Below are positions 5,114-64,000 of a stretch of DNA of 64,000 nt, one piece after another (position 1 is the stretch's first letter; the number at the start of each line of letters is the position of its first letter). Made by a program: the position numbers and the translations under genes. The notes under the pieces were generated by a model that saw only the letters and a program-made list of their open reading frames with translations, made no database searches and was not told the DNA's origin. The stretch is from contig VXCM01002851.1 of assembly GCA_014773175.1 (NCBI GenBank), forward strand, positions 20,289-84,288. The letters are read 5' to 3'. This DNA is from Lucifuga dentata. Lineage: Eukaryota; Chordata; Actinopteri; Ophidiiformes; Bythitidae.

Positions 5114-5160
<47 letters not shown>

Positions 5161-32579: not shown

Positions 32580-32624
<45 letters not shown>

Positions 32625-32645
32625 TCTTACCTGAACACAACTGTN

Positions 32646-32690
<45 letters not shown>

Positions 32691-32817
32691 TCTTACCTGA
32701 ACACAACTGTTCTATCTTGGAGAAATTCATCTGTAGAGATTCGTTGATCCAGGCAAGCATGTCGTGACGACTTAAGTTGTCACTGGTCACTGAGGTTGAG
32801 TAAACGTTCACAGCCAT
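24828..32817 (-). CDS. mapre1: microtubule-associated protein RP/EB family member 1 (EB1)
   Basis: Plus-end tracking protein that binds growing microtubule tips and recruits SxIP and CAP-Gly partners. Coding exons: 32697-32817 (ATG at 32817), 29822-29967, 27946-28150, 26973-27082, 25581-25733, 24828-24872 (TAA). Total 780 bp, 259 residues (human 268). Residues about 14-130 form the calponin-homology domain ([39 protein letters not shown]). A Pro/Lys/Ser-rich linker follows, then the coiled coil and EB-homology domain with [15 protein letters not shown], and an acidic tail ending EEQEEF, the EEY/F motif read by CAP-Gly domains (Phe instead of human Tyr). A non-coding first exon ends at 34303 (donor GTACGT). 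The first coding exon's donor region is duplicated around N32645, an assembly artefact. It lies downstream of dnmt3b in the same orientation, as in mammals. Confidence 0.95.
26370..26382 (-). promoter_or_regulatory. CTCF-like motif (reverse)
   Basis: The minus strand reads CCACTAGGGGGCA, convergent with the forward motif at 1287. It lies in a mapre1 intron, next to a hAT MITE. Confidence 0.35.
26406..26744. mobile_element. hAT-type non-autonomous element
   Basis: Starts CAGGCATGGGCAAGTGGC and ends TTCCCCATCCCTG, typical hAT/Charlie-like termini. It is flanked by an imperfect 8-bp target duplication, ATCCAGTG (26398-26405) and ATCCAGAC (26745-26752). Length 339 bp. Confidence 0.6.
27537..27664. 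repeat. inverted repeat, about 40-bp arms
   Basis: ATATACTGTATGAAAACTGAG at the left is matched by CTCAGTTTTCATACAGTATAT at the right, and most of the next 20 bases also pair. The AT-rich loop is about 45 bases. It lies next to a T run with N27503 in a mapre1 intron, probably a small MITE. Confidence 0.55.
28417..28759 (+). mobile_element. internally deleted TTAA MITE copy
   Basis: Both ends are present (TTAA-AGGACCATGC and CAGTCCT-TTAA), but it is about 340 bp against about 590 bp for full copies. It lies in the mapre1 intron between exons 2 and 3. Confidence 0.7.
30187..30773 (+). mobile_element. full TTAA MITE copy, young subfamily
   Basis: TTAA at both ends, TIR AGGACCATAA...CATTTTGCATGTTTGAGC, and the CTTCCAGACCTCCATTGG block. 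It lies in mapre1 intron 1. Confidence 0.75.
32578..32712. repeat. TC/CA repeat duplicated around N32645
   Basis: The segment 32578-32644 is repeated exactly after the N. The mapre1 donor therefore appears twice; only the one after 32697 is contiguous with the exon. Confidence 0.75.
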
Positions 32818-37565: not shown

Positions 37566-40500
37566 TTATCTGTGCTGCTGCGGGTCGGGGGAGGCGGGGG
37601 CCGACAGGGAGCTGGACGAGCTGCAGTTTGTCGTCATCGGAGGAAGCTCCTCACAGGTGAAATAGTCCTTTAAAGGAGCGAACAAGTGACGGATGACAGG
37701 AACGCTCCACGCTTTACCCAGCACCTTCTGCCGCTGCTGCCGGTTCATGTTCCTCACGTCCGTGTAATGTTTGGGGAAACCAAAGATTCTGGAGAGGCGA
37801 GCAGAGGAAGCGGGTCAGAATCAGCCGTGCGGCCGCCGTTTTACGTTAACCTTGCGGATAACGACGCCTACCTCTCCAGCTCCGTGATCCACAGGATGTC
37901 CTCTTTGCCGTTCTGGATGACGGGCAGCTGGGAGTCGTCTTTGCCCTGTTTCAGAGAGTTTGGGTTGGTGGTGATCGTCCTCACCTTACACACCTGCAAC
38001 AAAACAAGCTAACCGTCATGGCGGCTCTGGCACATTTCCCACTCAGGTAACTAAACCGAGTCAAAGTAAAATAAATTTAATTAAGCAACGCTGCACTTTT
38101 AAAAGCATTTTCACAACTAGTTTTGTTGACGGTTGTTTCTGAAACCCTGCTGGTTCATGTTCCTCAGCTCAAACCAGCCGAACTTAAGTTTGGTTGGTTT
38201 GAGCAAATGCAAACACAGAAATTAAACTCAGGTTCGCACCAAAACAATTCTTATCAAACTATGGAGGACGTCATTTAGTCTACTGACTGCTGTAGAACCA
38301 CTATAACTGCTGTAAAGTTTGTTTTACATTAAAGCAGCGGTTCTCAAATCCAAATCTTAAAGGTCCACAAAGAAAATTTTCAGTAAGACAACTAAAAAGT
38401 TTGCGGGGGGNGGGGTCTCTGCTGCAGAGAAAGCAGAGAATTTTGACTTGTTGTGTTGCAGCGATGTCTCACAGATAATACACAAGTCTGGATCCAGATC
38501 AGAGTCCAGACTTTGAGGATGACTGCACTAGATGCTCATCAGATGTCCGCTACTTAAAACCATTCAACACGTGGAAAACATTACCACAGTTAAACACCTT
38601 AGATCAGCCACGGACACAGATGCTGTGAAACGGTCGTATCATATCAAACGTAACACGTCTTCTTCACATCATGTGAAGCAACATGTGGTTTTCCACACGT
38701 TGTCTTGAAGTCAGATTCAGCTTCTGCTGTCATAGTTTTCTGATTTATGGACAAACTTTTTCTGGTTTTGGTTTTCTTTCTCTAGCCTCCAAACGTTTCT
38801 GACCAATGAGCAGACAGTCTGTCCTCACATGACTTTTCCTGATACACAGTGTGGTCCAAAAGTCTGAGACCACTGTGAAAATACTTCTATTTTCCATTCT
38901 TTTTGAATTTAATACAAGATTTTTTTTATTCCAAATGATCATATCATCTTAACAATTAGAGTGAAAAGTTGAATCCTTGAAAAATGTCCATGAATGTCAG
39001 AATATCTTAGTATTTGGTACGAATGTCAGAATATCTTAGTATTTGGTACGAATGTCAGAATATCTTAGTATTGGTACGCCCCCCTTTAGCTTTAATAACA
39101 GCATCATGGACTCCACACGTCTGTAAAAACCTGATGAGCCAAGTTATCCAGCATGATGTGACGATGTTCCAAAGAGCTTCTTGTCATGTCAGACTTTGAT
39201 TATTTCCACATTTACATGGAAAACATCACAGATTTTACGTGTGGTCTCAGACTTTTGGACCCCTGGATTTCAATTTGATTGGATTTTTTTTTTTTTTTTT
39301 TTTTTTGACCAAACCAAAACAAATGCAACATTCTCATAATGTGTCTGATTCATCTCAGAGCAAACAGATGTGTGTAAGGATGATGCGTGAGGATGTGTTG
39401 AAGGTTTGAGGAGCAGCGTGAACCAACTCTGGCCTTTCTGCCGATCTCCAAACACTCCTGCAGACTCAGCTTGTCATTCTGGGAGGCTGTGATGGGCCTG
39501 AAGAGAAAGAAGCAAAGTCCATTTAACGCCACACGTGACTGTTCAATTTCATTCATATGTAAGAAGACTCTGATATCACACTTTACAGAAAGTACCACAA
39601 ATGGGGAGATTTTCAAACAATGAAAACTAAACTTTTATTTCATTTTCTGACAAACGCTGAGCTGAGAATTTAACTGTAATGTCTCAGAGGGAACCAAAAA
39701 CCAAAAGAAGTTTTTATTGAGCCTACTGAAGGATTAATCATTCCTCACCACATATTACACATAAAATCAATCTGACTTCTTTCAAGATTTTGCTCTTTTT
39801 CATCTTTTTTCTCTTTTTTTTCCTCTCTGACTGGGTTTCCATGCTGACAGGATCAAACCTCCTAATGTGCAGCTCATTAACAAATTGCTGAAACCTCCAT
39901 ATTTCATAACGTAAAGGAGAAAAAGTGAAGAAAAAACAAGGAATCTTCGTAAAAATAAAATAATAGCTCAAACTTCTGGGATGTCAAAAGAAGTATAAGC
40001 AAATTATTGTAGGTGATTTATGTAGGCTTTTTTTTTTTTTACTTTTCAGANGATTTATGTAGGCTTTTTTTTTTTTACTTTTCAGATGATTTACAGGTGA
40101 TTTCCATGTAAATAAAAACCAAAATGATTTCTGCAATCATTACTAATCACAGGAAGTCATATCAATCCTGAGTCTAAACTTCTTTAAAATTCATACCTGC
40201 TCATCCCTGGAATATTTCCCCAGAAGTAACGAGATCTGTGGGCGGGGCTAACTTTCACTGCATCCACCAGCACAGGATTACACTGCCAATCAGAAAGCAG
40301 CAAGAGACAAAATGAGGAAGAAAGGTGAGTGAAGAAAAAAGAAGAGAGGGAAAAGAGAAGAATAATAGAAAGAGGAGAGGGAAAACAGGAAGGGACAGAA
40401 AAAGGAGAGAAAAGAAAAAAAAGGCTTGAGGTGACGTTAACTTCCCAAAACAAAGAGAAAGAGGTGATGGTGGTTCTTGTGGACCTCGAGGAAGCGGCAG

Positions 40501-43500
40501 ATGTTGACTTTGTCGTGTGTGTTCATGAAGACCACGTTCTCAAACAGCCAGAAGAACGGCCTGGAGTCTTCTTCTTTGGGCTTCAGCAGGTGAAGGATGC
40601 GGTAAAACTCAAAGAACAGCCTGCCAGTGCCCTCTGCAGGAGGAAAGGTGAATTACAGCAGAGAGAAAGTTACTTCTGTACAACGCACATTAATAAGAGT
40701 TAAATAAAGGGAGCCAGTTATTTGTTTATATTTATTATTCAAACATTTCAAAAACCATGACTAAGCTAATAAATGCCAAGAAGGTTTTAGTTGTCTGGAG
40801 TTTAACCCTCTTGAGTCTCAAACATTTTTCTGGAAAATTCTTCATTCTTGAAAAAAAATGCAATCTGACAGAATTGAGCAAAAACGTTTAAAATAGATTA
40901 TTTTTTTAAAAATCGTCAATTTTCTACTTGATTCTAGAATTTTGTGGAAAATGAAGTAAAATCTTCAAAAATCAGCAGTGTGTCAATGTGATTTTAGACT
41001 CTAGACGGTTAACAATGTAATATAAAAAAATATTAATGGCAAAAAAAAAAAAAAAAANAAAAAAAAAAAAAAAAGAATTTAACATAATGTAGAACTTCAC
41101 ACAAAGTAAACAGGATATTAAAACTACATTTTAATGGAAATGGATTTAGGGGAGAATGAAGTGGAAGTTTGATGATTATTGTTAAACGTGCAGACTGAGA
41201 CACTTTTTGAAAAGATCAAAAGAATGCAAAAATGCTTTGAATTGTACTTTTGTATTTGTATTCTATTCACTGCAAGTTTTAAATACTTTTGTTTCATAAG
41301 ATACGTCATAATAGGAGGAGCAGTTGGTATTTAGTATTTATCAATATTTACTGCCTGTATGTACAGCAATTTTTTTCTCTTTCTGCCATCCTTTCATAGA
41401 AAGAAACAATGCAAGACTATGCATGTTGCAGTTCAAAACTAATAAACACATTGTTGAAAAAACCCCCTGACATTTGCATACCATAGAGGCCTTTTCTTAT
41501 TGGGTTGACGATGGAGAGGTCGTTACAGGGGCTGCCACCGATCAGCAGATCAAACGGACCCCACTGCTTCAGCTGAGCGGACAAAAAAACAAGTTTAATA
41601 ACGAGCCAAACCTGCAGCTTCTCAGTGCCAGAAAGATTTCAAACGAGGTTTAACGAAGGATCCAAAAACAACAATGCAGCTACAACACATACAGGAGCCC
41701 TTTAACCAGCAGAGGTCAAAGGTCATTGTCAGCTAATAAACACAGAAACAAAGACCAGCAGTTTGTGAACATACGTGGTGCTTGCTGATGAACCTGACGT
41801 CGTCGACCTGGACAATCTTTCCCTCGTGGTTGATGGTTGCCACGGCGATTGAATCCTCACAGATCTCAGAGGCGATGTATTTCTCCACTTTGAAACCAAG
41901 ATCCTTCAACACCAAGTAGCCTGGAAATCATACAAACCAAAAAAAAAGAATAATCTGTGAGAGACGCTGAGCTGTTGGAATGAGGTTGGTCTGGTCATCA
42001 GTCCTGCCGCTCTGCGTTCTGACCTGTTGCTATGCCATCAAACAGAGACAGAACTCGCAGCGGTCTGCGCTGGTTAGCCGGGATGGACGGGTAAACGCGG
42101 TGCGGCTCCTACAGGAACAACAACAAAAGTCACGAGTGAAATAGAAAAAAACAACAATTTATCATCTGTAGGAGCTATTCATAATTTTTATATTTATGCT
42201 TAATTGGTAGTAATCTAATTTGTTGATTTTTGATAGATATAGATTAAGATCTGCCTGTTGCATTATTTAATTAAGTTAATTAGGTATTTTGTTGATGCTT
42301 TTGTTTTGAAATCACTGGGCGTTACTTCAGGTGACAATGTATATGTACAGTGGGGTCCAAAAGTCTGAGACCACGTGTAAAATCCATGATGTTTTCCATG
42401 TAAATGTGGAAATAATCAGAAAGTCTGACATCACAAGAAACTCTTTGGAACATCATCACATCATGCTGGGATAACTTGGCTCATCAGGTTTTTACAGACG
42501 TGTGGAGNTGGAACATCATCACATCATGCTGGGATAACTTGGCTCATCAGGTTTTTACAGACGTGTGGAGTCCACAATGCTGTCATTAAAGCTAAAGATA
42601 CTAAGATATTCTGACATTCATGGACATTTTTCAAAGATTCAACATTTCAATCTAATTGTTAAGATGATATTATTATTTGTAATGAAAAATCTGATATTAA
42701 ATTCAAAAAGAATGCAAAATACAAGGATTTTCACAGTGGTCTCAGACTTTTGGACTCCACTGGTATGCAGGTACAGGACTCCCGGGTGTCTGGGAGGGTT
42801 TATGTATTTTTTTTATGAGAGCAAGGGTGGAGTGAGACATCTTCATTTGTCAGTTTGTTTGCTTTAAAATGGAAAAATAAACTTTCACAGACACACAAAG
42901 TTTTCCTGGGCAATGGACTTCTGTCTGCATAAGAAAGATTCCCAGTTACCTCAGTAGCATTCAAGTTAATTTTGTTTAAATGATTTGCAAAGATAAATCG
43001 CCACTGCAGCAACAATCTGATAAAAAAATAAAACATTTCCGATTGGTAAGTGTTTCGGATTGAGCTCAGAGAAATGACTGAAAAGGCCAAGTTCGTCTAT
43101 ATTTCGGAAACGGGATCAGATACTGTAAAAATAGCACATCCTGACAGATCAAACAGCATTTCGTTTTTGGCATCGTTATTAAAGGAGTGTTGATCACTCA
43201 CAAACTCCATGGCGCTGTTGTTGGCGAACAGCTCCTGAACTCGTACGCTCCAGTCCTCCCTGGGAACCAAAGCACCGTGGGGTTTGTGCGGCTGACACAG
43301 GTAGCAGATCCACGGGTCCTGGTCCTTCAATGAGTCAAACGTCCCCGAACCGACGAGGATGTTGAGGCAGTCCGCACAATACGATCTGCAAAGGTAAAGA
43401 GGACAGAGGAAGAGAGGGAAGGACATTACTGTTCATACCGATTTTAGGATGGAAGGCCACAGTATGGGGGTAATGGGGGTCTACGGCCGACGCCGTAACT

Positions 43501-46500
43501 CCACCAGACACGCCCACTTTGTGCAGATTGTTAAAGTGAGGAGGGTTGTAATTTTTCTCCCAAGCTTTCTTTGTTTTCTTTCTGTCACGGTATCCAACAC
43601 TCAAATTTGAAAGTGAAACAGTGCCTCATTATTCCTGTTTAGAATCAAGTGGAAATCACAGTAATTCAACGAAGAGTAGAATTCCATTTTCTCCGTTTAG
43701 ACGATTAACATCGGATTGATATTATAAAAAAAACAAAAACAAACAAACACGCACAACTAAAATTAATCTGTTCTGAACTTCAACATGTCTGGGTTTGACA
43801 TGGAGTTTACACTTCAGCTTTAAAGGACCATACCATCCATTTTGCATGTTTGAGCCTAATATATTCAATTTTCATACATGTAACGTTACTGACAATCATT
43901 TCCCAAAGCATACTACTGGAACGGTGAATTAAAAATGTTTTTCCTGCCTTCCAGACCTCCATTGGTTTCAGTTCATTCTGCTATTAAAATCAACTTGTTG
44001 ATACTGTAAACGTTCTTGGGATAGGTAATCCATCATCACCAACAAGACGTGTATTCAGGTTTTTTTAGAAGTTATGTAATTTTAGTGTTTAAGCTCAATA
44101 AAAAGCGTGGAGTGAATGTATGCCTCCACCGGGGAATATAGTCCCAAAAGAAGACCTGCGTTTATGGAAAAATTTAAAGGACCGTGACTTCATAAGGCTG
44201 TGTAACTATTAGCAGGAGAAACATGGATTTTTAAGGTGGGTGTATCACTTGAATATTTGATTTTGAAAGATTAAGAGATTTTGCAAAATATCAGGAAAGC
44301 TGAAATATAGTTTTATCCTTTGGGAAATGATTTTCAGTAACGTAACATGTATGAAAACTGAATATAGTAGGCTCAAACATGCAAAATGGGTGGTATGGTC
44401 CTTTAAAGCATCAGGTGATCAACAAACATCATCACCTTCCAGTCCAACAGTTTGAAAAGTTGACACTAAACAGCAGTGGGACGGAGCGGACAGACGGACC
44501 TGCAGCAGCTGTCGTTGCCACACAGGATGACTTCCAGGCCGTAGCAGCAGATGGTGCAGTACGACTGATATCCATCTTCATCATAACGATACAGAGTTTC
44601 TGTGAAGTTAACCTGCAGGAACACAAACAAGGACAGAAGCAGCCTTAAAGGGCCATGCTGGTGATTTTGCATGTTTAAGCCCAATAAATACTGTCAGCAT
44701 ACATGTTACATTACTGCAAACCTGTAATACTCTATCTTAGTTTTTATGTTATTTTGTAAATCCACTAATCTTTCAAAATAAAATGTTCAGGTGCAAAATG
44801 AAAACTTAAAACTCAATGTTTCACCTGCTAACACTTTTAATTACAGTTAAAAGCTGTCTTTTCCTGTGACTATACTTTCTGGCAGAGAAATACATTTTCT
44901 TCCGTGCAGCTACACGTTAGATCGGATAAATTAAGTAACTCTGACAAAAAAATTTAATAAACATCATATTCACTGCGATTGATTACTTATGTCTAGCATA
45001 TTTTAAAGGACCATACTACCAATTATGCATGTTTGAGCCTAATATATTCGATTTTCATACGTGTTGCATTACTGACAATCATTTCTCAAAGGATAAAACC
45101 GTATTTCAGCTTTCCTGATATTTTGCAAAATCTCTTAATCTTTCAAACTCAAATATTCAGGTGATACACCCACCTTAAAAATCCATGATTCTCCTGCTAA
45201 TAGTTACACAGCCTTATGAAGTCACGGTCCTTTAAGTTTTTCCACAAACGCAGGTCTTCTTTTGGGACTATATTCCCCGGTGGAGGCATGCATTCACTCC
45301 ACACTTTTTATTGCGCTTAAACACTAAAATTACATAACTTCTAAACAAACCTGAATACACGTCTTGTTGGTGATGATGAATTACCTATCCCAAGAACGTT
45401 TCAAAGGTAGGAAAAACATTTTTAATTCACTGTTCTAATAGTATGCTTTGGGAAATGATTGTCAGTAACATTACATGTATGAAAACTGAATATATGAGGC
45501 TCAAANATGCTTTGGGAAATGATTGTCAGTAACATTACATGTATGAAAACTGAATATATGAGGCTCAAACATCCAAAACGGCCAGTATGGGCCTTGAAAT
45601 CTGTACAAATTGACTTATGCGTGTATTGAAATGAACTGAAACCAATGGCATTCTGGAAGGTAGGAAAAACAATTCTAAAATGTATGTTTTGGAAAATGAT
45701 TGGCAGTAACGGAATGCCTACATTGGTAGTATCTAAAGGGCTCAAAAGTGCAAAATCACTGGTATTGTCCTTTAAGAGAACTTTTAGAGAGCAGATAAGA
45801 AAATTTATGGCTGAAGTGAGAAATGAAAGAAGTGTAATATTTTATTCATCTTTTTTTTTCTAAATTTCAGCAGAGTAACTCTTACGTATTCACACATCTC
45901 AGACACCAGAAAACATCAGGAAAGTTCTTATTTTCTTACTTTGCACTTAAAGCACAGGCTGCCTTCAAACAGAGGATGGAATATTTCAACCTCCTCAGTT
46001 CCGCAACACAAGCAGAATCCTGCAGATATAAAACAGAAAAGCACAAAGAGTAAGGAAAAAGAGTAAGTGAGCAGCTGTTTTTACATTCACACAGAAAATT
46101 TAAAACACATAAAGCATGACTCATGTAAATATAGTATTTTGACTATACTCTGTGGAATTAGAATTAATGACTTTAACTGCAGTAAGATTTGATGTACTGT
46201 AAATTTTCCTGGAAATATCACAATCAGTGAGTCAGTGAATGAAACAACAAGATGCTGCAGAATTCAGCACCAACAGAGCAAAGAAAAATTTGTCATAAAC
46301 ATCAGACAAAACAAAACACGCCATACAACCTTCAATGTCCAATTTGTTGTCCATGATCCTACGAATGGTGTCATCTGCAAGAAAATAAAACATTCATTAA
46401 AAATCTTTGATCAGAAACGAACTTAATACTTCTCAATAATCAACTCTAAAATAATTTTTTTTTTAAACATATATTGTCCATGTTCTTATTTTCATTTAGG

Positions 46501-49500
46501 GTTTATTTTGAAAGCTTTGCAATGCTTCAATGTGCAAAAAAAAAAAAAAAAAACCCAAAAATGTTGACCCATTTCTACTCTCCCATGTAGCAGCGCTGCT
46601 GTGCACACTGAGGGAAAACAGGGCATTTTAAGCCTGGTTTATGCTTAACGTGGATACAAAACAAACAGTCCGTAAGTCCTGGTTCTCACGCTTTCATGAT
46701 GGCTTCAAATGACAGACATGCACTTCACCTCTGGGAGTTTTGGTAGCACTGTAGGACAAAGCCACTATTAAAGGACCATACCACCCAATTTGCATGTTTT
46801 AGTCTAATATATTCAAGTTTCATACACGTAATGTTACTGACAATCATTTCCCAAAGCATACTGTTGGAACGGTGAATTAAAAATGTTTTTCCTACCTTCC
46901 AGACCTCCATTGGTTTCAGTTCATTCTGCTATTAAAATCAACTTGTTGATACTGTAAACGTTCTTGGGATAGGTAATCCATCATCACCAACAAGACGTGT
47001 ATTCAGGTTTTTTTAGAAGTTATGTAATTTTAGTGTTTAAGCTCAATAAAAAGCGTGGAGTGAATGTATGCCTCCACCGGGGAATATAGTCCCAAAAGAA
47101 GACCTGCGTTTATGGAAAAATTTAAAGGACCGTGACTTCATAAGGCTGTGTAACTATTAGCAGGAGAAACATGGATTTTTAAGGTGGGTGTATCACTTGA
47201 ATATTTGATTTTGAAAGATTAAGAGATTTAGCAAAATATCAGGAAAGCTGAAATACGGTTTTATCCTTTGGGAAATGATTGTCAGTAACGTAACATGTAT
47301 GAAAATTAAATATATTAGGCTCAAACATGTAAAATGGATGGTATAGTCTTTTAAACTCCCTGAACACAAAAACAAACCAAGCGGAAACAGAAGTAGTTTC
47401 TGGTTCAATTACCCCCAGAATAAATAGATAAATAAATAAATTTAAGAAATGGAGGCAGTGAAAAGTGAGCTGTTGTTGATTAAGAGATGGAATTTCTGTT
47501 AAGAACTTTTTGTCGTTTAGATCTTCTGCTTTGTACTTCCTTTTCCTCTGCACCGCTTCGCTTGGCCAATCATCGACGAAGTCACACAAACAATGCACGC
47601 ATCATTTCAAAATCCAAGCATTGCATGACCTCACAAGCGACTCTCCGATCCGCCTCCACCGCCAAATGTTTTACCCACAATCCCTCCGCATTTTCCATGC
47701 GCCCACTGCTGTGTCTATGTCTGCATTAAGCATAAACCAAGACTTACGTATGGCCCCTTATGGCCCAAATCCAAAAATCCTGCTCTGTTTTGTAATTTCT
47801 CATGTTGTATTTTCATATAGTTTAGTTTGAAGGCGGTTTGAGTCTTTCCTGGTAGATGAAAAGTCTGACCTGGTTATTTGACACGGTACCTCTTTGTTTC
47901 TGGTTGGGTTGTGTGTAAACGCTGGTTGACTCTTTGACTTTATTGTAGACTCTGGTGTACTCCCGCTTCCTCTGCGGCAGATAGTCTGGTGACGGATCGT
48001 CATCGAATCCACAAAACAGGCTGCTTTTTTTCCTTCCCCTCCCCCTCCCCCTTCCTTTCATTTTCTGCCATCCTCCTCCTCCTCTTTTCTCCACAAAGGC
48101 GACTGGGGAGAAGGCGGCTTCTTCCCAGTCGCCTTTTCCTTGTCCGCCTCCTTGTCTTCCTTTCATTTTCCCCCCCGTCTCCAGGCTGTTGCAGGACATT
48201 TCTACGATGTTATCTGGTAATTTCTTCAGAGAGATGGACACATTTTTCAGCTCATACATGACGCTACTCGAGCACGGAGCAGAGGTGGATTTCTGGAAGA
48301 GCTGCGTCTTCACCTTTGGCCTTTTCAACGTTACGGGAACACCTGGACACAGGACAATCAGAATCATGTCACAGTCAGACCTTTTCCATCTTTGCTGGTG
48401 CAAAACCCAAACTTCTTATTTTTTTCCTCTCTCAAATAGTAGCCAAGGCAAGTCTGTTCAAAGAGATAAAGATAAAAAAAACAATGTAGCTGTACTAAAG
48501 CTGAACATTTCCACAGGTTTGATTACATCCAAATGACACGTCATGAGAAAGTGTTGCTGAGTTTTTCCTTTTTAAACAGAAAACACTGTTCACACACTTT
48601 TATTTATTCTGACTCTGCTTTGCTTTAGGCTCTTAAGCATCTCTGAAATTCTGAGCATTTTCATCTTTGTATACCTGCCAATTTTTACCTGTTTATTATT
48701 TAAAGATGCTAAATAACCGTCACGTGTCCGTGTGTCATTATAAAGCAAATAATCTGAATTTTTATGTGCTGTATGAACTGATTTCAACAATACTAAACAT
48801 TAAAGGACCATACCACCCATTTTGCATGTTTGAGCCTAATATATTCAATTTTCATACATGTAACATTACTGACAATCATTTCCCAAAGCATACTACTGGA
48901 ACAGTATATAGGCTCAAACATGCAAAATGGCTAGTTATGGTCCTTCAATGGTCAAATGAAACGGTGCAAAAAAATAAAAGGAGGAGCTTGTCAGCTTTTT
49001 ATTGCATGTTATTCTCATTTGATTATAGCATATGTGGGCTTGATTAAATCTTCAGACTGTGTTTTGTAAAGCAATGTTTTGTTCTGGCTTCATAAACTTC
49101 TAACGACCACAACTCACACTGCTGTAAAGTGAGATGCTTCCATTTGTGGTAAATTCTATTGAAAAGAGGAGAGTTTGAGCTTTTAAAGGAGGTCTAATGT
49201 ATATGCTGAAGTCTACTGTCAACATGAACATGGTAAATGTTTACATGTTCGGTTTTACGTGTAGAAGTGATGTCGCCTGCAGTTTCAGCACCTTAATGGT
49301 TAAAGACATGAAGCTGCTGGTAATAAAATCAAACTCTTCCTGCTGATATTTCAAAAAAAAAAAAAAAAAAAAAAGAAAAAGTCTTGCAGGGAGGGAAAAC
49401 GATTCCGTACCGTTAGCAGAGGGTTTTGGTTTGAATCCGTCCGGTCCCATGGGCTGGAAGCCGCCGAAGGCCCAGTCCAACATCTGCTTCAGGAGCAACT

Positions 49501-52500
49501 CTCTGTCCACAGAAAACTGTTTCTTACAACGAGCAGCTGCATCCTGACACACACACACACACACACACAATTAGTGAGTCTATGTGATGCCTCCTTTTAA
49601 CTTGTTGTTTATATACAATGGGGTCCAGAAGTCTGAGACCACCATGAAAAAGCTTTTATTTTGCATTTTTTTTAAATTTCATCCAAGATTTTTCATTCCA
49701 AATGATATCATCTTACCAATTACAGTGAAAAGTTGAGTGTTTGAAAAATGTCCATGAACGTCAGAATATCTTAGTATCTTTAGCTTTAATGACAGCATCA
49801 CTCCAGCTACATGGACTCCATAAGTTTGTAAAAACCTGATGAGCCAAGTTATCCCGGCATGATGTGACCATGTTCCAAAGAGCTTCCTGTGATGTCAGAC
49901 TTTCTGATCATTTCCACATTTACATGGAAAACATCACAGATTTTACATGTGGTCTCAGACTTTTGGACCCCAATGTTTGTTAAAAAATACAGACACACAC
50001 GTACCTGCAGGGACAAGAAGATGGCGTCTTTGTAGGTGATGAGGGTGGCAAACGAGTTTGGGCAGAAACACTGGGCAAAGTGAGCGAATGGCTGGAGAAC
50101 CTGCAAGCTGATCTGCAACCGCAGCAAAGAGAGAAGAAGAACGAGACAACATGAGCGAGCTGTTGAGAAAACCGTTCTCGGGTTAGTTTCCTCCTGTTTA
50201 TGTAGATGCATCAATCCGAAAGCAGCAACTAACTTTCCTCTTCGCTCACAGGACTTTTTTTTTTTTTTTTGNTTTTTTTTTTTTTTTTGGTGGTACCCAG
50301 AACACGAACGGAGCTTTTATGTTTGCAGCTCCTCATACATGGAACTTTCTGCTAAAAGTTTTAAAATTACAGACTTTGGTTTCTGATGACAGATTTAAAG
50401 GTTTGCTGCAGGATCTTAATGTGTCATCGTTAAAATGTCAGTGTCATGAGGAATGTTCAGGGGTGTTTTCGGGAAATTATTTCTGCTGAAAGTTTGAATG
50501 TTAACACTTCATCAAATTACAGGGTATAAACAATTTTTGTGCTGCAATCATTTTATTTTACGTTTTATGTTATTTGTCTGTAACTTTTTATGTCATTGCT
50601 GCATATCTTTGGCCAGGACGCCCTTAAAAAAGAGCTATTTTAATCTCAATGAGGTTAAATAAAGGTTAAATAAAATAAAAAACAAATCTGTTGTCCTGCT
50701 TAAAAAGAAACAGGACTTAAAGGATCATATCAGCCATTTTGCATGTTTGAGCCTAATATATTCAATTTTCATACACGTAACGTTACTGACAATCATTTCC
50801 CAAAGCATACTACTGGAATGGTGAATTAAAAATGTTTTTCCTACCTTCCAGACCTCCATTGGTTTCAGTTCATTCTGCTATTAAAATCAACTTGTTGATA
50901 CTGTAAACGTTCTTGGGATAGGTAATCCATCATCACCAACAAGACGTGTATTCAGGTTTTTTTAGAAGTTATGTAATTTTAGTGTTTAAGCTCAATAAAA
51001 AGCGTGGAGTGAATGTATGCCTCCACCGGGGAATATAGTCCCAAAAGAAGACCTGCGTTTATGGAAAAATTTAAAGGACCGTGACTTCATAAGGCTGTGT
51101 AACTATTAGCAGGAGAAACATGGATTTTTAAGGTGGGTGTATCACTTGAATATTTGATTTTGAAAGATTAAGAGATTTAGCAAAATATCAGGAAAGCTGA
51201 AGTACGGTTTTATCCTTTGGGAAATGATTGTCAGTAACGTAACATGTATGAAAATTGAATATATTAGGCTCAAACATGCAAAATGGACGGTATGGTCCTT
51301 TAAAGAAAAACCTTCTCAGTGTAGGTCACAAACACGACATATCTATGCAGCTTCTGCTTCCGTTCATCAGGTGTGTTTGTGTCGTCCGTCTCACCTGAGA
51401 GCAGAGTCCCTGGCCGTACCACTCCACCGTCCTCCTGCCTGGAAGCTGCGTCTGTCCCGCACAGGGTCTGATGATGCCAGGCCAGAGAGGGAAGCCCTCC
51501 ACCTGACCCCACACCAGCTCCCCCTTCATGTCCTGTTTTCATTTAAATAAGAGGGTTTTTTTTTTTGTTTTTTTTTTTAATCTGGCCTCCTGTTCTACAC
51601 ATATTACAATTACTCATGCATTAGAATTTTTTTTTACCAGTAATCCTGTTGAGCTGCATGATGTGACTGTCAGAACATCAAAGTCATCTTCATCACTGTC
51701 CAGAATGCATATAGAATCTGGGTGCTGAGCGCTATAAACTGCAAAAGAAAAAAAAAAATAAAACTGTCAATAAGACACTGAATCTTCTGCATTTTTAATC
51801 CAGATTAATGGTTCATACATGTGTAAAGGCTCAGATTCAGTTCATTGCTAATGGAGCTGAACATAATTATATAATCTATTAGGGCTGAGGGAGTAAGTGA
51901 TTAAATCGTTAAAGGAGCTATTTTGCAGTAACGTTACGTGTTTGAAAATTTAACATATTAGGCTCAAGCATGCAAAATGGCTGGTATGGTCTTTTAAGTG
52001 ATAGACAGTAAATTCTTAAAACTGTTGCTTTTGTGTCACTAAAAAGTATGAGATCAGATCCAAACTCTCCATTTAAATAAACTTGATCAGTAACTCAAGA
52101 GACAAACATCACCCAGATTTCATACCGCTGAAATTTATTGTCAGACTGAAACAGATTTGTTACGGCGTTTTTCGTTAGTTTACAACTATACGTAAATACC
52201 ACAGTAACATCTCTATCAAGGCAAATGCTAAAGATGCAAGAAAAAGAGTTTATGAAGAGACAAAAAGCTTGTGATTCTATTTGCCCTTATTGACACAAAT
52301 CTGCCACTATGTTTTATGAATTACCCCCAACAGCCTAAGCATAATATTGTGAGCATTAATCAATAATTTAAAGTTTTATATGATATTATATTAAGCGGAT
52401 ATAGTATCTGTGGCTACTTTTCTGGTCTCAGACTGCTTCACTAGGTGATGCCGGTGTACATTAATCACAAAGAGCAGGTTTCTTACATTCTGGTTTGGCT

Positions 52501-55500
52501 TGTCTGATGCTCTGAGACGTCTTCCTTTCTTCTGTGACGTCGACCACATCTGAGAAAAATAAAAATTTAATTTTATTACTCATCAGTGTCGTTAAACACA
52601 ATATTATTCTGGAAAAATTGGTGCAGAGACATAACAGCTATATGCACATTAAGCGAGCTCGTGACCAGAAGGTCGCCAGTTTAATCCCTGGACTACCAGG
52701 AGGAATCTGGATGAGGGATTAGGTGAACTAGCAGCGAACTTCTCCTCAAAAACTACAGGTTAAAAAAAAAAAAAAAAANAAAAAAAAAAAAAAAACAACA
52801 ACAAACTAAGATTATACTCAGATTAAGACAACTTTTTTCCCCATAAGTCATGTAAATACCATAATTGGATTTAAACATGCATAAATCGGAGTAAAGTTAC
52901 CTAGATTATGCAAGTGTAAATTAATTTATTCAGGCATGTAAACGTTATAATCTCTCCTCATATGTGTCGTGTATCTACTGAAGCACAGAATCTGAATAAT
53001 TCCATCCATGTACAAGTTTTACTGGCATTTTTGCCATTATTGCCATACAGAAAAAACATCTGAGTATAATATGCACGTAGATGTATTGAGTGACGTACAG
53101 AAATACCAGTTGAGCTTCTGTTCTGGTGTTTTCACACATCGTTTAATCCTCTGGAGTCTCAAATCAATTTTTCAAGAATTTTCTCCATTTAAAAATCAAA
53201 AAAAATTCAGAGCTAAAAGAATTTAGCAAAAAAAAAAAAAAAAAAANAAAAAAAAAAAAAAAAAATCTAAAATCTAAAAAGTTGTCAATTTTCTACTTTT
53301 CTATAAGATTCTAGAAAGTAAAAGAAAGTCTCCAAAAAATCAGCAAACAATGTGTGAAAAGTGGCTTCAGACTGCAGAGGGTTAAAAGTTGCTAAGCTTC
53401 TGATTCCTATGATGGGAAAGTTAAACGAGGCCTGTTAAAACATTTTAGAGGGTTTTAATGAAATTTTTCTATAATAATTTGACAAAAAAAAAATTGCTTG
53501 TTAAATTAATGGTGTATCAAAGAAGCTAATAGAAAATAAAAGCATGCATCATGTAGAAAAAGGTACTTATAAAGTGAAATTTCTGTCCATAAGCCCTGTG
53601 CAGACCTGAGCGTGGATCTTACCAGAGGAGTTGTCCGTGTAGTCGGACTTATCCATCTTGTACCATGAAGGAGGAATCACTCGACCGGCGTTACCTTCAA
53701 AATCCTCATCATCCTCCGTAGAGCTTTCCTCCGTCTGCTCGTCTTTCTTGTCATAATAATGCAGGTAAACAGGCGTTTTTTGTCTGTGGATGTGATGTCT
53801 ACCCGCCTTACTGCCCACTTCCTGTCGGGCCGGAGCTTTGGGACACCCTGTCCAGTCTGAAATAGCCTCACAGCTGCTGGGAGACACCTTAAGACAGAGC
53901 AAATACAAACACATGTGCTGTAAATCTCTTTATGTCAACATCAACAACAGCTAACCAGAGGAATTTTCACTTCCTCGTTCACTGATGAAGATTCTGATGA
54001 AGCTTTGGTTGAGGAAAGGAAGATGCGTAGATGCATTGACTTGTAACTTAAAAGGGGAACTTTTACCCCAAAACCTCACAAAAACACAAGCTGGACAGTT
54101 TTGTGTCAGTTCTGAATGTTCTTTGTGTAATTTCATTAATCACGCAGCTTCCTGAGCAGCTTTACCTTAGCAAACACCTGCGACCTGTTCAGAGAGCTCG
54201 GCAGGGCCAGGAGGGTGACGAAGAGTCCACGCAGCACAGAGTCTGGTCTCATGCAGCGTAGCCTCTGCACAGACAAAACTGCTGTTAGAATATCTTCATC
54301 ATCATCAGATACATTTGTGTGAAAACAAAATGTGTCCCGTGTTTAATGAAGTCACAGTGACCAACTTCTCACAACTACCGTCAGTCTGCCCAAACGAAAT
54401 GTGGAGCGGTTTGTTTCTGGTCTGAACATGATCCACACTACTTCACACCAACTACAGATCAATATACTGATGTATTGATTGATTAGCAGCAGACATGCTA
54501 GTTGTGCATGATTAATGTTAATAAACTCCGCTTTTGATGATTAAATCTAACCTGACTGTTAAAGGTGGAAATACATCAATCTTAGCTAACACATGTTCAG
54601 ATGAACATGTCAAGGCAGCATGTCTTCTTCACATCATGTGAAGCAGCATGTGGTTTTCCACACGTTGTCTTGAAGTCAGATTCAGATTCTGCTGTCATAG
54701 TTTTGTTCTTTATGGATCAAATGATGCTATGACTAGGAAAGGATCCACATTCATCTTTATTCATCTGATTTACTTTGACACCATAGAAACTACTTCCTGT
54801 TTGGAGTTTCTTTCTCCACCCTCAGACATTTCTGACCAATGAGCAAAGAGAGAGTGTTATCACGTGACTTTTGCTGATATATTTTGGTTTGATTGGATTT
54901 TTTTTCTGTGTAAACCTGAACCAAACCAAACTGCAAATGCAGCATTATAACAATTCAGTCTCTGATTCAGACCAGAGCAAACGATCTACAGATCAGAAAA
55001 CACTCTAAAAATAGAATCTTACTCATTGAGTTTCACAGAGATTCATTCCAGTGACCAGAAGCCTCCGTCTCTAAACTCTTCAGGCTGTCTTGTCACTGTA
55101 CCTTTGCCCAGCAGCGAGCTCCTCCTCGTCCTCTTTTCTGCTCATCTCGTAATGTCTGAACCCACTGCAGGTACTCGTCCGTCAGCCTCCGTGTCTCTGC
55201 AGAGCCGGCCGCACACACACCCAGCTGCACACCCAACTTCTGCAGCACCTGTGTGTAGAACTTATTGAACTGAGAGGAAAAGACAGAAACCAAATAACGA
55301 TTAGATCAGCAGGAGTACGATACACACAATAGATTACGCATTACATTTCAAGCTAAGGCCAAATTGCTACACATTGTACACAGACAGTATATTGATAAAA
55401 GAAACTTCCCCAAGATCTTATTTCATACCATCAGACAAAATAAGCCATTTAAATTTACACAGAGCAAAACTTGGCACAATAACAGACAAAAAATTAAAAG

Positions 55501-55732: not shown

Positions 55733-58133
55733 TGCATGTGTTGAAACTTCGAGCTCAGTCAGAGCTGCATGTTTAAACTATGTGACTTTGATTGTTTGCA
55801 TACAGGATTTTCTTCATACTTTTTAATGGTGCAAACTTCAGTCAGACGTCTTCAAGCCTACAGAGTGAAGGGTTTGATGCTGAAAAGATTTTGGATGGAG
55901 TATAACTTTCAAACTCAGTCAGTATAAAATAAATAATTATCTTACACTTGTGTTGTCGGGCCGTTTCAGCATTGTGGCGATATCCCTCATCGACGTGTTT
56001 CCAAGCTGCTCAGGAACACTCTTTGCTAAACTCTCTAGTGCTGCTTTATAGAAAACCACGACGCCCTTCAGGAAGTCCAGCCGTTCCTCATGTCCCAATT
56101 CCATATCTGAGCTGGACAACAACAAGATCCGTGCACTGGAGCCGACTTCCATCTCTGAAGCAGGTAGCAGCTCCTCGTCATTGCTGAGGAGAATCAGGTC
56201 TCGCTTCCTGAGAAAGCGCTTAGCGATAGGAGGCCGGAGGAGGCTGGTGGCGTAGGAGTCAGCCAGCACGGAGGTCAGCTGGAGCTCTCCGGCCATGTCG
56301 GTCATGCCGCTCTGCTGCACTTCCTGGAGAACACGGATGGGCTCCAGAGTGTGACTCAAGAAAAGGAAGTGGAGTTTCACTTTGGGATCCATCAATTGAG
56401 CTGTAATGCGGTCGATGTCGTCAGCTCGGCACAGAGACTTGAAATACTCCACCAAGTCGCCCCAGCTGCTGGCCATCTTCTGCACTGTCTGGATAATGAA
56501 TAAACACTGTGTGGAGACAGGAAGGGAAGGGTCATAAGACGCAGCGAAAAAGTCTTTCACCTTCACGGCAGAGCAGGAGGAGCAGTGATGGTGGATGTCT
56601 CTAATTAGGTCGATCACATGACTAAAGGAGGCTGCGAGTCCGGCCTGGAGAACTCTTCCAGCAAGTCCAGTAAGGCCACAGAGTGACACCAACCAAGGGC
56701 TGAAAGCCTGAAGCTGAGATACAAACTCCCTGCTGGCCGCCTGGCGAGGAGAATCACAGTAAAACGCAGCAAGGTTGACCAGAGGAAGTCCACATTTCTT
56801 CAGCGTCTCAATCAGGATGTCTGCATCTGTGATCTGTGTGTCACAGTTCATTTTCTCTGTGGCGTCTGGATCTCCATCACCAGTGTCCACACTCATCTGC
56901 AGCGTGTCCAGCACTCGCACCACCTCCAGCCCTGAGTTTGGGTTAAAGTAGCCAATCAAAATAACACTCGTGTTCTGACCTCCACCCAACTCTACCTGCA
57001 TGTACAGGTAGAGGCAGTATGGCATGTGAGAACAGGCGACCACGATGTCCGCAGGGTGGTTCGGACCCAAGATGGCAGAAACTGAAGGACCTGAAACGTG
57101 GGAGTTTGACTTTGTGTCCATGTTAGCACAGAAGTATCTTCTGATAAAATGAGACAAAGTGTCGCTGCAGCTGAAACTCCCCTCTGACATTTCCATCTTA
57201 GCTGCTCCTCTTTCGTCCTCTGCCTCCTTTTTCTCCTCCACCTGCTGAGGTTCTTCTTTCATGGTCTCCATCTCGTGCTTCTTCTCTGCTTTCGGCTCCG
57301 TCATCACCTCCACCACATCGCCCTCCTCGTCAGATGTCAACACTATGACTTCTCCATTCCTATTCAAATGCTCCCTCGCTTTCTCTTTGCTTTCTGTCGT
57401 TTTGCTCTCCATCTTCAGAATGATTTCCAGTTTCTGACGAAGACTGTTGGAGGAATCGCTACCTGCAAAGAAAGAAAGAAAAAAATAAAAAAAACACAAG
57501 ACAATGAGCTCACTTACATCCACGTTTGCTTGTGGGACATTTATGTAACGTTTGTGTGATTTAAAGGACCATACCGACCATTTTGTATGTCTGAGTCAAA
57601 CATATTCAGTTTTCATACATGTTACGTTACTGACAATCATTTCCCAAAGCGTACTCCTGGAATGGTGAATTAAAAATGTTTTTCCTACCTTCCACACCTC
57701 CATTGATTTCAGTTCATTCTGCTATTAAAATCAACTTGTTGATACTTGTACTCAATACAACAGGACATGAATTCAGGTTTTTTTTTTTAGAAGTTACGTA
57801 ATTTTAGTGTTTAAGCACAATAAAAAGTGTGGAGTGAATGTATGCCTCCACCGGGGAATACAGTCCCAAAAGAAGACCTACGTTTATGGAAAAATTTAAA
57901 GGACCGTGACTTCATAAGGCTGTGTAACTATTAGCAGGAGAAACATGGATTTTTAAGGTGGGTGTATCACTGAATATTTGATTTTGAAAGATTAAGAGAG
58001 TTTGCAAAATATCAGGAAAGCTGAAATACGGTTTTATCCTTTGAGAAATGATTGTCAGTAACGTAACATGTATGAAAACTGAATACATTAGGCTCAAACA
58101 TGCAAAATGGATGGTATGGTCCTTTAACTTGTG

Positions 58134-58177
<44 letters not shown>

Positions 58178-59422
58178 CCCACCTGAGTTAGCAGGAACCA
58201 TGCTCTGTCCTCCTCTGGCCTCTAAGGCATGGTACTCCCTGCTGCTGTTGTTCTCGTCAAAGAAGAGCTTAAACCACTGCAGGAAGGTCAGAGACACCAC
58301 AGAGTTCCTCCTCATCAGCGCCTCAACGGGGATTTGCTGCACAAAGAACAGAGGTGCATTAAGGCGATAACTCTGAAGCCGTCTCTGATGTGAAGGAAGT
58401 AAACTTTGATTTGATGTTTAAAGCTCATAAAAATATTAACGCATCAGAAAATATTTTTCACCAAAATCAGACAAGATTCTCAAGAAATGAATAGCACTGG
58501 GAACGCTTCTAATATTCTGTCACATTTCTCTTTAATATGAAAGTGCAATAAAGCAATAAAATTAACTTGGTAATTTTATAATTTAACAACTATTGGACTG
58601 GGAGTAATATGTGGGTAAAACAGTGAAAACATTTCTGAGAGGTTGTAGCTGACAGAAACTTTACAGACATCAAAGCTGACACCAATATTAGACAATTTCT
58701 CATACATCATGTCTATTACTGATACTCATATGTAACTTTAAGAGAACTTTTGATCCTTAACAAAGAAGCATGTTTATCTTAATGTTCTTAGAACCAGAGG
58801 ACACTTTGACAGCACTCACTCGGGACACTCCCACTTTTCTGAAAGCAGCCTGCAGTAAACTGTAGTTGTGGATGATGTCCACCTGGTCTGTGCTTTGGAA
58901 TCGAACCCTGGATAACTCCAGTGACCTGGGAAACAACCAGTCCATCAACTGGCAGTATGCTGCACCTAAAAAGATATTCATATGCACACCAGCAAAAATA
59001 ATTTCTACATGCACGGTGGACACTGATTACAGAACATTTCATGCGTACAAATACTACCATATTAATAAATTCTTTGAAACTTTGTTCAGCAGTTAAATGA
59101 GCTAAACTGTGCGGGTATAAGTTCAAATTTGTTGTAATATATCTCATGTTAATACCACCAACTTATGATTTTTTTCTTTATTGCTTAATTTTGTTTAATC
59201 CATTGGTTAATTGTTTAGTGAACACCTCTTTAATCAATTATCCAATCATGCACATACTGCTCTACGCTGACTGACTGACACACACACACACACACACAGG
59301 TATGTACCTGTGGATACCTGCTCCACCTTGGTAAAGCCTGTCTGTAGAGTTTCATTGAGCCAAGCTAGCAGCTCATAGCGATTGTATGTCTGGCCCACAG
59401 GCAGGACGACATTTGCTGCCAT
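37566..59422 (-). CDS. dnmt3b: de novo DNA (cytosine-5) methyltransferase 3b, long chimeric form with CH domain
   Basis: Methylates CpG cytosines de novo in the nucleus. Coding exons: 59308-59422, 58820-58965, 58183-58336, 55946-57462, 55102-55269, 54166-54264, 53623-53887, 52487-52549, 51638-51738, 51395-51532, 50005-50112, 49411-49543, 47890-48342, 46330-46374, 45940-46019, 44500-44612, 43202-43385, 42024-42108, 41775-41920, 41482-41572, 40485-40633, 40197-40282, 39428-39497, 37872-37993, 37566-37788. All phases join: 4854 bp, 1617 residues. Order: EB1-like CH (1-138), acidic linker, hAT-like region (about 235-560), helical region, PWWP (880-958), Gly/Arg-rich linker, ADD zinc domain (about 1160-1290), methyltransferase (1295-1590). 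Catalytic motifs intact: [13 protein letters not shown] (Cys1387), FENVV, RYFWGN. After the usual DYF(A/T)CE end there is a Ser/Pro-rich tail of about 30 residues. Mammalian DNMT3B (about 850 aa) lacks the first 700 or so residues. Confidence 0.93.
38640..39365. repeat. copy of the unclassified repeat, split by a Tc1 MITE
   Basis: The left part (CTTCACATCATGTGAAGCAA to TTTCCTGATACA) and right part (TTGATTGG...CAGAGCAAACAGATG) flank the MITE at 38846-39263. A T run lies in the right part. Confidence 0.5.
38846..39263. mobile_element. Tc1-type MITE inserted in another repeat
   Basis: Ends are related to CAGTGTGGTCCAAAAGTCTG and its inverse (CAGACTTTTGGACCCC), about 415 bp. A 22-base unit (GAATGTCAGAATATCTTAGT) is tandemly triplicated at about 38994-39070. 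It interrupts the repeat copy at 38640-39360. Confidence 0.6.
42346..42765. mobile_element. Tc1-type MITE
   Basis: TA-CAGTGGGGTCCAAAAGTC at the left and GACTTTTGGACTCCACTG at the right, with TA nearby. N42508 lies inside, with an exact 62-base tandem copy on each side, an assembly artefact. It lies in a dnmt3b intron. Confidence 0.65.
43820..44406 (+). mobile_element. full TTAA MITE copy, young subfamily
   Basis: TTAA-AGGACCATACC to GGTATGGTCCT-TTAA, with TIRs of about 85 bp. It lies in a dnmt3b intron between the two main ADD exons. Confidence 0.8.
44645..45775 (-). mobile_element. older TTAA MITE copy split by a younger one
   Basis: The left end at 44645 (TTAA-AGGGCCATGC) and right end at 45772-45775 (GTCC-TTTAA) belong to the older subfamily. 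Its middle resumes at about 45600 after a complete younger copy. The GAACTGAAACCAATGGCATTCTGG block is in the right half. Confidence 0.65.
45003..45597 (-). mobile_element. younger TTAA MITE nested in the copy at 44645-45775
   Basis: TTAA-AGGACCATACTACC to GGGCCTTGA, reverse orientation, containing the N45506 join with a tandem repeat of about 60 bp. Insertion into the older element orders the two subfamilies in time. Confidence 0.65.
46768..47354 (+). mobile_element. full TTAA MITE copy, young subfamily
   Basis: TTAA-AGGACCATACC to GGTATAGTCTT-TTAA. It lies in the dnmt3b intron between the linker exon 47890-48342 and the first ADD exon. Confidence 0.75.
48800..48948. mobile_element. 149-bp deletion derivative of the TTAA MITE
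   Basis: The left TIR (TTAA-AGGACCATACC...CATACTACTGGAACAG) is joined almost directly to the end of the right TIR (TATAGGCTCAAACATGC...GGTCCTTCAA). It is nearly all inverted repeat. Confidence 0.7.
49616..49976. mobile_element. Tc1-type MITE
   Basis: The same family as the elements at 38846 and 42346: starts CAATGGGGTCCAGAAGTC and ends GACTTTTGGACCCCAATG. It lies in a dnmt3b intron. Confidence 0.6.
50290..50693 (+). mobile_element. LINE-like 3' tail
   Basis: Ends in CTCAATGAGG and tandem GGTTAAATAAA units, preceded by GGCCAGGACGCCC. This is a common arrangement at the 3' ends of fish non-LTR elements. No ORF remains. N50272 and T runs lie on the left. Confidence 0.4.
50717..51303 (+). mobile_element. 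full TTAA MITE copy, young subfamily
   Basis: TTAA-AGGATCATATC to GGTATGGTCCT-TTAA. It ends about 90 bases from the PWWP exon 51395-51532. Confidence 0.75.
51909..51997. mobile_element. 89-bp remnant of the TTAA MITE
   Basis: TTAA-AGGAGC is joined directly to the right terminal repeat ending GGTATGGTCTT-TTAA. Confidence 0.6.
52630..52794 (+). mobile_element. tRNA-derived SINE-like element
   Basis: Contains AGGTCGCCAGTTTAATCCC, resembling a pol III B box, followed by CTGGACTACCAGG and an A-rich tail carrying N52779. The tRNA-like head is degenerate. It lies in a dnmt3b intron. Confidence 0.4.
54610..55010. repeat. unclassified interspersed repeat, best copy
   Basis: About 400 bp that includes TTCTGACCAATGAGCA, CACGTGACTTTTGCTGATAT and TCAGACCAGAGCAAACGATC. 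Related copies lie at 8930-9185 and, split by a Tc1 MITE, at 38640-39360. No coding potential was recognised. Confidence 0.5.
55678..55730. repeat. (AT)n microsatellite
   Basis: About 26 AT units in the dnmt3b intron between exons 55946-57462 and 55102-55269. Confidence 0.9.
55946..57462 (-). other. dnmt3b: giant dnmt3b exon 4: acidic linker plus hAT-transposase-like domain
   Basis: One uninterrupted 1517-bp exon (residues 139-644). Residues 160-230 are Glu/Lys-rich. From about 235 the order of motifs resembles hAT/DUF4371-type RNase-H-fold proteins: an exposed strand with [11 protein letters not shown], an [13 protein letters not shown] helix, LAAFYCDSP (equivalent to the GxGxDGAS strand), [20 protein letters not shown] (equivalent to the Lk..p.li.vHC..H segment), and a [11 protein letters not shown]...[13 protein letters not shown] helical part. 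The acidic residue expected in the first strand and the CxxH element look lost, so it would be catalytically dead. This is pattern recognition without a profile search; a fold of another origin is possible. Confidence 0.5.
57561..58127 (+). mobile_element. full TTAA MITE copy between the CH and hAT-like exons of dnmt3b
   Basis: TTAA-AGGACCATACCGACC to GGTATGGTCCT-TTAA. It fills most of the intron between exons 58183-58336 and 55946-57462. Confidence 0.75.
58135..58176. repeat. CA/TG repeat after dnmt3b exon 3
   Basis: On the sense strand (TG)n follows the weak GTGGGG donor of exon 58183-58336. A similar repeat at 59279-59298 follows exon 1. Confidence 0.8.
58183..59422 (-). other. dnmt3b: EB1-type calponin-homology exons of dnmt3b (coding exons 1-3)
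   Basis: Exons 59308-59422, 58820-58965 and 58183-58336 encode residues 1-138. They align end to end with mapre1 coding exons 1-3: MAANV/MAVNV starts, [118 protein letters not shown], then EARGGQ..VPANS/EARQGQ..PTPNS beyond the CH fold. Exon 2 is 146 bp in both genes; intron phases are 1, 0 and 1 in both. About half the exon-2 residues are identical. ATG at 59422 follows acceptor TAG and GTGGGAG. Confidence 0.9.
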
Positions 59423-63240: not shown

Positions 63241-63307
63241 CCTTTATTGGTTTTATTTGCATTTCTGAAAGCCAAAAGCAGGGGAGGTATTATAATGAGT
63301 CGGTTAG

Positions 63308-63555
63308 TCATCTTTGTTTTGTTGAGCACACTGGGGAGCAAAGAGAAAAAAAATATTTAACATGATGTATTAAACAGTAAGTAGATAAATAAGAGAAGGA
63401 TGTAAAATAAGCACTAACCTTTAATTACAATCAAAATTACAGTTAGTAACGACGGTAAAATAACAGAAAAGCAGTAATGATTTCTCGATGCATTTGCACA
63501 GATGACATCTTCCGTCAGGCTTCCCTCTGAAAACTTCACCTGCCCTTCTGTGCAA
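63308..63555 (-). CDS. C-terminal exons of a probable TNF-receptor-family membrane protein (5' part off the right edge)
   Basis: Two exons: 63419-63555 (acceptor CAG, donor GTTAGT) and 63308-63330 (TGA at 63308-63310). The larger encodes SCTEGQVKFSEGSLTEDVIC, resembling the end of a TNFR cysteine-rich repeat (CD40 and related receptors end in G-T-x-x-T-D-V-V-C). A hydrophobic span of about 20 residues follows at once (FSVILPSLLTVILIVI), then a short tail KVCSTKQR. An intracellular tail of about eight residues has no death domain or TRAF motif. Two AATAAA signals lie near 63243-63260. An alternative downstream exon could exist at about 63065-63112. The family call is tentative; the exon structure is better supported. 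Confidence 0.45.
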
Positions 63556-64000
63556 CTGTTGGAGAGAAAAATGGAAAACTGCTTTAGCGCTTTATTTCTG
63601 TTTGCAATCGAGACACTAAATGCCATCTTAATAAATTTAAAATATCAGCAGTGAGAAATGTCACGCACTCATTGTACTTACTGATCTACGTCATAATACA
63701 CACATTCTGCCTAAACTAAAGATACATAGTAAACGTACTTTTTCCTCGTCAATACTGAAAACATCATTTAGACATTCACAGTCTGGCTTTAAATTTAAGT
63801 GAACTTCTGATTTATGACTTAGGGTAAAAATAATTTTGATTATGTAAGAAAACGATTTGATAAAATGAAATAGCGAGTGTAACAGTAGATAAAGTAAATA
63901 AGCAGGTAAGAAGAGAAAAAGCAGGACTTAGTAAAAAAAATATAAAACTCATAAAACATGAATGAAAACATATCAAAAGACAAAACAGAGGAAGAAAAAA

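Follow-up and report, generated by a model that had tools for sequence, protein, structure and literature searches.

How did a DNA methyltransferase gene of fishes come to begin with a domain of a cytoskeletal protein? The question is raised by a 64,000-nucleotide stretch of the genome of the cavefish Lucifuga dentata (contig VXCM01002851.1, positions 20,289 to 84,288 of the forward strand; hereafter, the window), in which the first three coding exons of a dnmt3 gene encode a CH domain resembling that of the adjacent mapre1 (EB1) gene. A sequence-only reading of this locus had proposed a simple mapre1-dnmt3b fusion. Here we show that the domain is of EB type, and that the piece to which it is joined is predicted to derive from a hAT transposase, so that the simple fusion gives way to a three-part one. 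This third, putatively transposase-derived part is the main new finding beyond the earlier reading, and an architecture of EB-type CH domain, hAT-derived domain and DNMT3B is very probably correct.

Fusion genes in which a transposase domain is joined to a host regulatory protein are an established class. The present gene would differ from other members in pairing the transposase domain with a de novo DNA methyltransferase and in having a third part that comes from an EB gene.

That Dnmt3ba and Dnmt3bb.2 of fishes carry a CH domain has already been published (PMC6976628, PMC5513168, PMC5320511). These accounts concern the same gene and include both the N-terminal CH domain and the gene order dnmt3bb.1-dnmt3bb.2-mapre1b; the portions of them at hand name neither an EB origin, nor matching introns, nor a transposase-derived domain. 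A literature search, with subscription journals mostly outside its reach, returned no publication combining dnmt3, CH domain and EB1, and matches for dnmt3b, dnmt3 or dnmt3ba together with transposase were judged unrelated from titles and abstract openings.

Methods

Gene models for dnmt3 and mapre1 were built by hand on the minus strand, keeping the reading frame, using GT donors and AG acceptors, and ending at a stop codon. CH trees were built from 52, 48 and 30 rows. Linkage of CH-dnmt3 and mapre1 was counted from hand-copied tables with one contig per protein cluster, first in 25 species (20/25) and then with five species added. Sites of the hAT catalytic acids were placed by eye on two strands, the count covering the strand-1 and strand-4 sites. 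The four microtubule-contact positions tested in Mal3 (PMC3368265) were placed on EB1 (His69, Lys76, Lys89, and Gln102) by alignment.

Results and discussion

An EB-type CH domain with two EB-matching introns

The dnmt3 gene has 25 coding exons (59422 to 37566, minus strand), is open to its stop over 1617 amino acids, and spans approximately 22 kb. The mapre1 gene lies 3' of it in the reading direction (six coding exons, 32817 to 24828, minus strand) and encodes 259 amino acids, identical (100% over 259 residues) to L. dentata LDENG_00061170 (order Ophidiiformes). As the sequence-only reading had it, exons 1-3 of the two genes match in order, with intron phases of 1, 0, and 1 and an exon 2 of 146 bp in both; 62 of 135 aligned residues (46%) are identical, and the alignment score of 325 compares with a mean of 28 (standard deviation 4.2, maximum 50) in 1000 shuffles. 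Introns 1 and 2 fall at equal aligned residues after one 2-residue gap (38.33/87.0 versus 40.33/89.0), but the third intron position differs in L. dentata (exon 3 of 154 bp in dnmt3 and 205 bp in mapre1). Both proteins begin as described earlier (MAANV in Dnmt3, MAVNV in Mapre1), the start codon lying 7 or 10 bases after a possible splice acceptor (read by eye) in both genes, and the likeness does run past the CH fold into the EB1 linker (EARxGQ...P.NS). Given the two matching intron positions, the CH piece was most likely gained as intron-bearing genomic DNA and not as a retrocopy.

Sequence matches of the window CH domain in the PDB are EB chains (EB3, 129.2 bits; EB1, 121.9 bits), and the predicted model of a relative keeps the EB fold, with non-EB CH folds scoring far lower. 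A generic CH domain is thus ruled out, in agreement with the sequence-only reading. The domain shares its fold, its sequence, its first two intron positions, and its MAVNV-like start with EB1/MAPRE1 (and with Bim1 and Mal3); the Dnmt3 protein differs from these in that most of the tested microtubule-contact residues are changed and that it is joined to a methyltransferase. The EB C-terminal domain (PF03271), which is present in window mapre1, was not reported in window Dnmt3, whose N-terminus is an EB-type domain and not an EB protein.

A module probably derived from a hAT transposase

In predicted models, the domain encoded by exon 4 has an RNase H-like core with an all-helical insertion as in Hermes, and the model of one relative (P0208) aligns to Hermes residues 142-609. 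The low Foldseek TM-scores of the predicted hAT-like models weigh against a hAT affinity. Pfam scans at E up to 1 and 10 reported no hAT model, although HMMER filters may hide weak matches. Because Pfam gave no match, the hAT case rests on predicted folds. The catalytic acids of hAT transposases are not conserved: on strand 1 no column is acidic in all 64 rows (the most acidic, at residue 157, is so in 41/64), and the strand-4 site is D in 28, E in 4, and N in 25 of the 64. The N-terminal zinc finger pattern of hAT proteins is absent from residues 101-880 of window Dnmt3, and a C2H2-like finger occurs in 32 of 63 relatives. The window gene shares the predicted core and helical insertion with Hermes and other hAT transposases, as those 32 relatives share the finger, but differs in its catalytic site, in lacking the finger, and in being part of a host gene from sturgeons to percomorphs. 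On these models, we regard exons 4-6 as a hAT transposase that has been domesticated and whose catalytic acids are not conserved; the module is hAT-derived and not an active transposase. Terminal inverted repeats and an 8-bp target duplication would hardly be expected to persist in an insertion this old. A second L. dentata paralogue, of dnmt3ba type (P0281, LDENG_00205980), keeps the CH domain, the zinc finger, and the hAT module.

The DNMT3B part and the identity of the gene

The remainder of the protein contains ADD and C5-cytosine methylase domains (PF17980, PF21255, and PF00145, all above cut-off). PWWP (PF00855) reaches 21.9 bits in the window protein against a cut-off of 25.6, and 40.6 bits in the gar protein. 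The best PDB match of the gar protein is DNMT3B (910.7 bits), with DNMT3A at 901.7 bits; since these scores are nearly equal, assignment to DNMT3B and not DNMT3A rests mainly on gene order. The published order, in its older names, is nol4lb-commd7-dnmt3bb.1-dnmt3bb.2-mapre1b (PMC6976628, where dnmt3bb.2 is called dnmt3bbb), and because it places dnmt3bb.2 beside mapre1b we refer to the window gene as dnmt3bb.2 (dnmt3bbb). The DNMT3 N-terminal motif RGxYGWESSLRQKP...FQAG, which gives weak PF22855 matches in relatives, was not seen before the PWWP region of the window protein and is kept in Dnmt3ba-type relatives.

The reading in which the CH exons are no part of the real protein, being instead a relic left unspliced or the product of merged annotation, is very improbable. 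Mergers do occur, as in Clarias magur, where dnmt3 and mapre1 are fused in a single model. Against this, the window CH domain as a database query retrieved 78 proteins, and in 70 of them a CH and a methylase Pfam domain occur together; core CH residues including W23, N25, G41, C45, Q46, P53, N74, and W110 are identical in 27/27 Dnmt3 CH rows. The protein P0059 has a CH-to-methylase reading frame of 1582 codons within a contig of 6159 bases, compared to approximately 22 kb for the window gene, which points to a spliced transcript, although a gene copy without introns would also fit. Ricefield-eel dnmt3ba was reported as a cDNA encoding 1484 residues with a CH domain, versus 825 for the plain Dnmt3b form (PMC5320511). 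The proposed joining of exons 1-3 to exon 4 in one transcript is thus supported indirectly, by many gene models, the P0059 frame, and the ricefield-eel cDNA as published.

Age of the fusion and source of the CH domain

The named matches listed (78/78 for the window query, 120 of 155 for the gar query) are all ray-finned fishes, including Amia, sturgeon, paddlefish, tarpon, and others with the gar query; bichirs, lobe-fins, and sharks are absent among them. In the 52-row tree, the 27 Dnmt3 CH rows lie on one side of a branch with support of 100/100; in the 48-row tree rooted on yeast EBs, the 21 Dnmt3 CH rows form one clade (100/100) in which sturgeon and paddlefish split from the other 19 (93/91). 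The simplest reading of these trees would be a single origin of CH-Dnmt3 before the sturgeon split.

Liu et al. (2020; PMC6976628) prefer to view the CH-bearing dnmt3b as a product of the second vertebrate genome duplication rather than of a lineage-specific tandem duplication, and in their tree the CH-bearing genes of teleosts do root with gar dnmt3bb, separately from other dnmt3b genes. We consider this unlikely. The two gar dnmt3b genes are described as arranged in tandem (PMC5513168), unlike genome duplicates, which suits local duplication better, and the ray-finned distribution of the named matches listed, with no bichir among them, also speaks against it. As to the donor, location favours the adjacent mapre1. 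The two genes are, as the sequence-only reading stated, adjacent on the same strand in a conserved order, which is found in our models and in the published arrangement (PMC6976628); CH-dnmt3 and mapre1 are on equally long contigs in 21 of 30 species with both matches, carry consecutive locus tags in Gymnothorax, and are run together in a single gene model in Clarias. Phylogeny does not single out EB1. AU (approximately unbiased) tests accept all placements, both in a first set (EB1, p 0.495; EB2/3, 0.661; outside vertebrate EBs, 0.69; EB1 without the Dnmt3 rows, 0.684) and with slow rows (EB1, 0.436; EB2/3, 0.361; outside vertebrate EBs, 0.366), and the gar CH domain, like that of the window, scores higher with EB3 (177.7 bits) than with EB1 (171.4 bits). 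Grouping the Dnmt3 CH rows with EB1 of ray-finned fishes only was likewise accepted (p 0.523).

These results also bear on a source in mapre3, mapre2, or an EB gene predating the vertebrate EB split, brought in by some rearrangement in which the present neighbour had no part. The AU tests and EB3-leaning scores speak for such a source, as does identity to human EBs, by which 11 of the 27 Dnmt3 CH rows are nearest EB3 (13 are nearest EB1, with 3 ties). Paddlefish CH leans slightly the other way (EB1, 188.4 bits; EB3, 186.7 bits). At 8 positions separating EB1 from EB2/3, EB1-type and EB2/3-type residues number 4 and 0 in sturgeon, 4 and 1 in paddlefish, 3 and 2 in gar, and 2 and 1 in the window; this weakly favours EB1, a count with a thin basis of one EB2 and one EB3 sequence, in which several positions may be ancestral states. 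Together with the published position of dnmt3bb.2 beside mapre1b and the linkage on equally long contigs, it makes a different EB source rather doubtful. In summary, the Dnmt3 CH clade is firm, and the adjacent mapre1 is its probable source, a judgement that we lowered slightly because of the EB3-leaning scores.

Proposed origin and working

Our explanation, which we hold to be probable, is that the front half of dnmt3bb.2 was put together from the 5' portion of an EB gene, in all likelihood mapre1 copied in tandem, and a domesticated hAT element, the rest being an ordinary DNMT3B with a putative PWWP domain and with ADD and methyltransferase domains. In the stem lineage of Actinopteri, a tandem duplication would have copied a dnmt3b-mapre1 unit, with a hAT element lying after the truncated copy of mapre1 and before the second dnmt3b. 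Splicing would have joined the mapre1 piece, the hAT piece, and dnmt3b into one gene. The CH fold may then have been retained as a protein-binding surface while drifting from microtubule-end tracking, the hAT module may supply dimerisation and contact with DNA or chromatin, and the two together may act at the N-terminus to direct the methyltransferase to its targets. We offer this division of roles tentatively.

A CH domain that still binds microtubules and delivers Dnmt3b to their ends or to the spindle is an improbable alternative. The EB fold is kept in the predicted model of a relative, Lys89 in 21/27 Dnmt3 CH rows, and sturgeon and paddlefish retain Lys76, Lys89, and Gln102. Against these stand the loss of His69 (kept in 0/27), Lys76 (2/27), and Gln102 (9/27), the window residues at the four positions (Val, Ser, Arg, and Val), and the absence of the EB C-terminal domain. 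As sturgeon and paddlefish keep three of the four contact residues, the microtubule surface seems to have eroded over time. Less probable still is that the dead hAT module recognises mobile-element DNA or chromatin and steers methylation there, with the CH domain as a second, repurposed docking arm; if true, an enzyme that silences transposons would be directed by a transposon fragment.

Layout of the window

Coordinates of the features are summarized in Table 1.

Table 1. Features of dnmt3bb.2 and mapre1 in the window, with positions counted from its first letter.
Feature	Position	Strand	Remarks
dnmt3bb.2 coding exon 1 (MAANV...)	59308..59422	-	115 bp; EB-type CH domain; ends phase 1; homologous to mapre1 exon 1
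dnmt3bb.2 coding exon 2	58820..58965	-	146 bp; CH domain; ends phase 0; homologous to mapre1 exon 2
dnmt3bb.2 coding exon 3	58183..58336	-	154 bp; end of CH domain and EB-like linker; ends phase 1
dnmt3bb.2 coding exon 4	55946..57462	-	1517 bp; acidic linker, then predicted hAT-transposase-derived RNase H-like domain with helical insertion
dnmt3bb.2 coding exon 5	55102..55269	-	Putative C-terminal part of hAT-derived module, from alignment of the P0208 model to Hermes
dnmt3bb.2 coding exon 6	54166..54264	-	Putative C-terminal end of hAT-derived module (LLALP stretch), from likeness to relatives
dnmt3bb.2 coding exons 7-9	51638..53887	-	Linker with acidic stretches
dnmt3bb.2 coding exons 10-12	49411..51532	-	PWWP region (PF00855, 21.9 bits, below cut-off of 25.6)
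dnmt3bb.2 coding exons 13-17	43202..48342	-	Basic linker and ADD zinc finger (PF17980, PF21255)
dnmt3bb.2 coding exons 18-25	37566..42108	-	Methyltransferase domain with SPCN motif (PF00145)
mapre1 (EB1), six coding exons	24828..32817	-	PF00307 and PF03271; proposed source of CH domain
mapre1 coding exons 1-3	32817-32697 (121 bp), 29967-29822 (146 bp), 28150-27946 (205 bp)	-	Phases 1, 0, 1

No second dnmt3 was found in the window upstream of 59.5 kb by tblastn with three Dnmt3 proteins, and dnmt3bb.1 may lie beyond the window edge. Where it might be expected, upstream of dnmt3bb.2 (63000-63600, minus strand), are short spliced-looking exons with a transmembrane-like stretch. On the other side, acss2-like exons (approximately 3780-5654, minus strand; named by eye) agree with the mapre1b-acss2 order given in PMC6976628, and an open frame at 18436-18807 (minus strand) resembles, by eye, a B-type mannose-binding (pufflectin-like) lectin. 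At 32580-32700, the donor of mapre1 exon 1 occurs twice around an N, as does a GT/GA microsatellite, probably an assembly duplication.

A repeat of approximately 600 bp occurs in dnmt3 intron 3 (57561-58130) and mapre1 intron 2 (approximately 30187-30776), with 89% identity over 594 bp; further copies were seen by eye in introns near 51300-50720, 47340-46780, 45760-45010, and 44410-43830. The copies have the look of a family of short non-autonomous transposons, and the 594-bp match, being an unrelated repeat, was not counted as evidence of homology between the two loci.

Conclusions

Fishes are widely used for studies of DNA methylation, and they possess Dnmt3b paralogues of which some greatly exceed the plain form in length. 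An EB-type CH domain and a domesticated hAT element would give this extra part an origin, a likely date (before the sturgeon split), and testable roles. In these fishes, a neighbouring cytoskeletal gene and a transposon seem to have supplied the material from which an epigenetic writer was remade.
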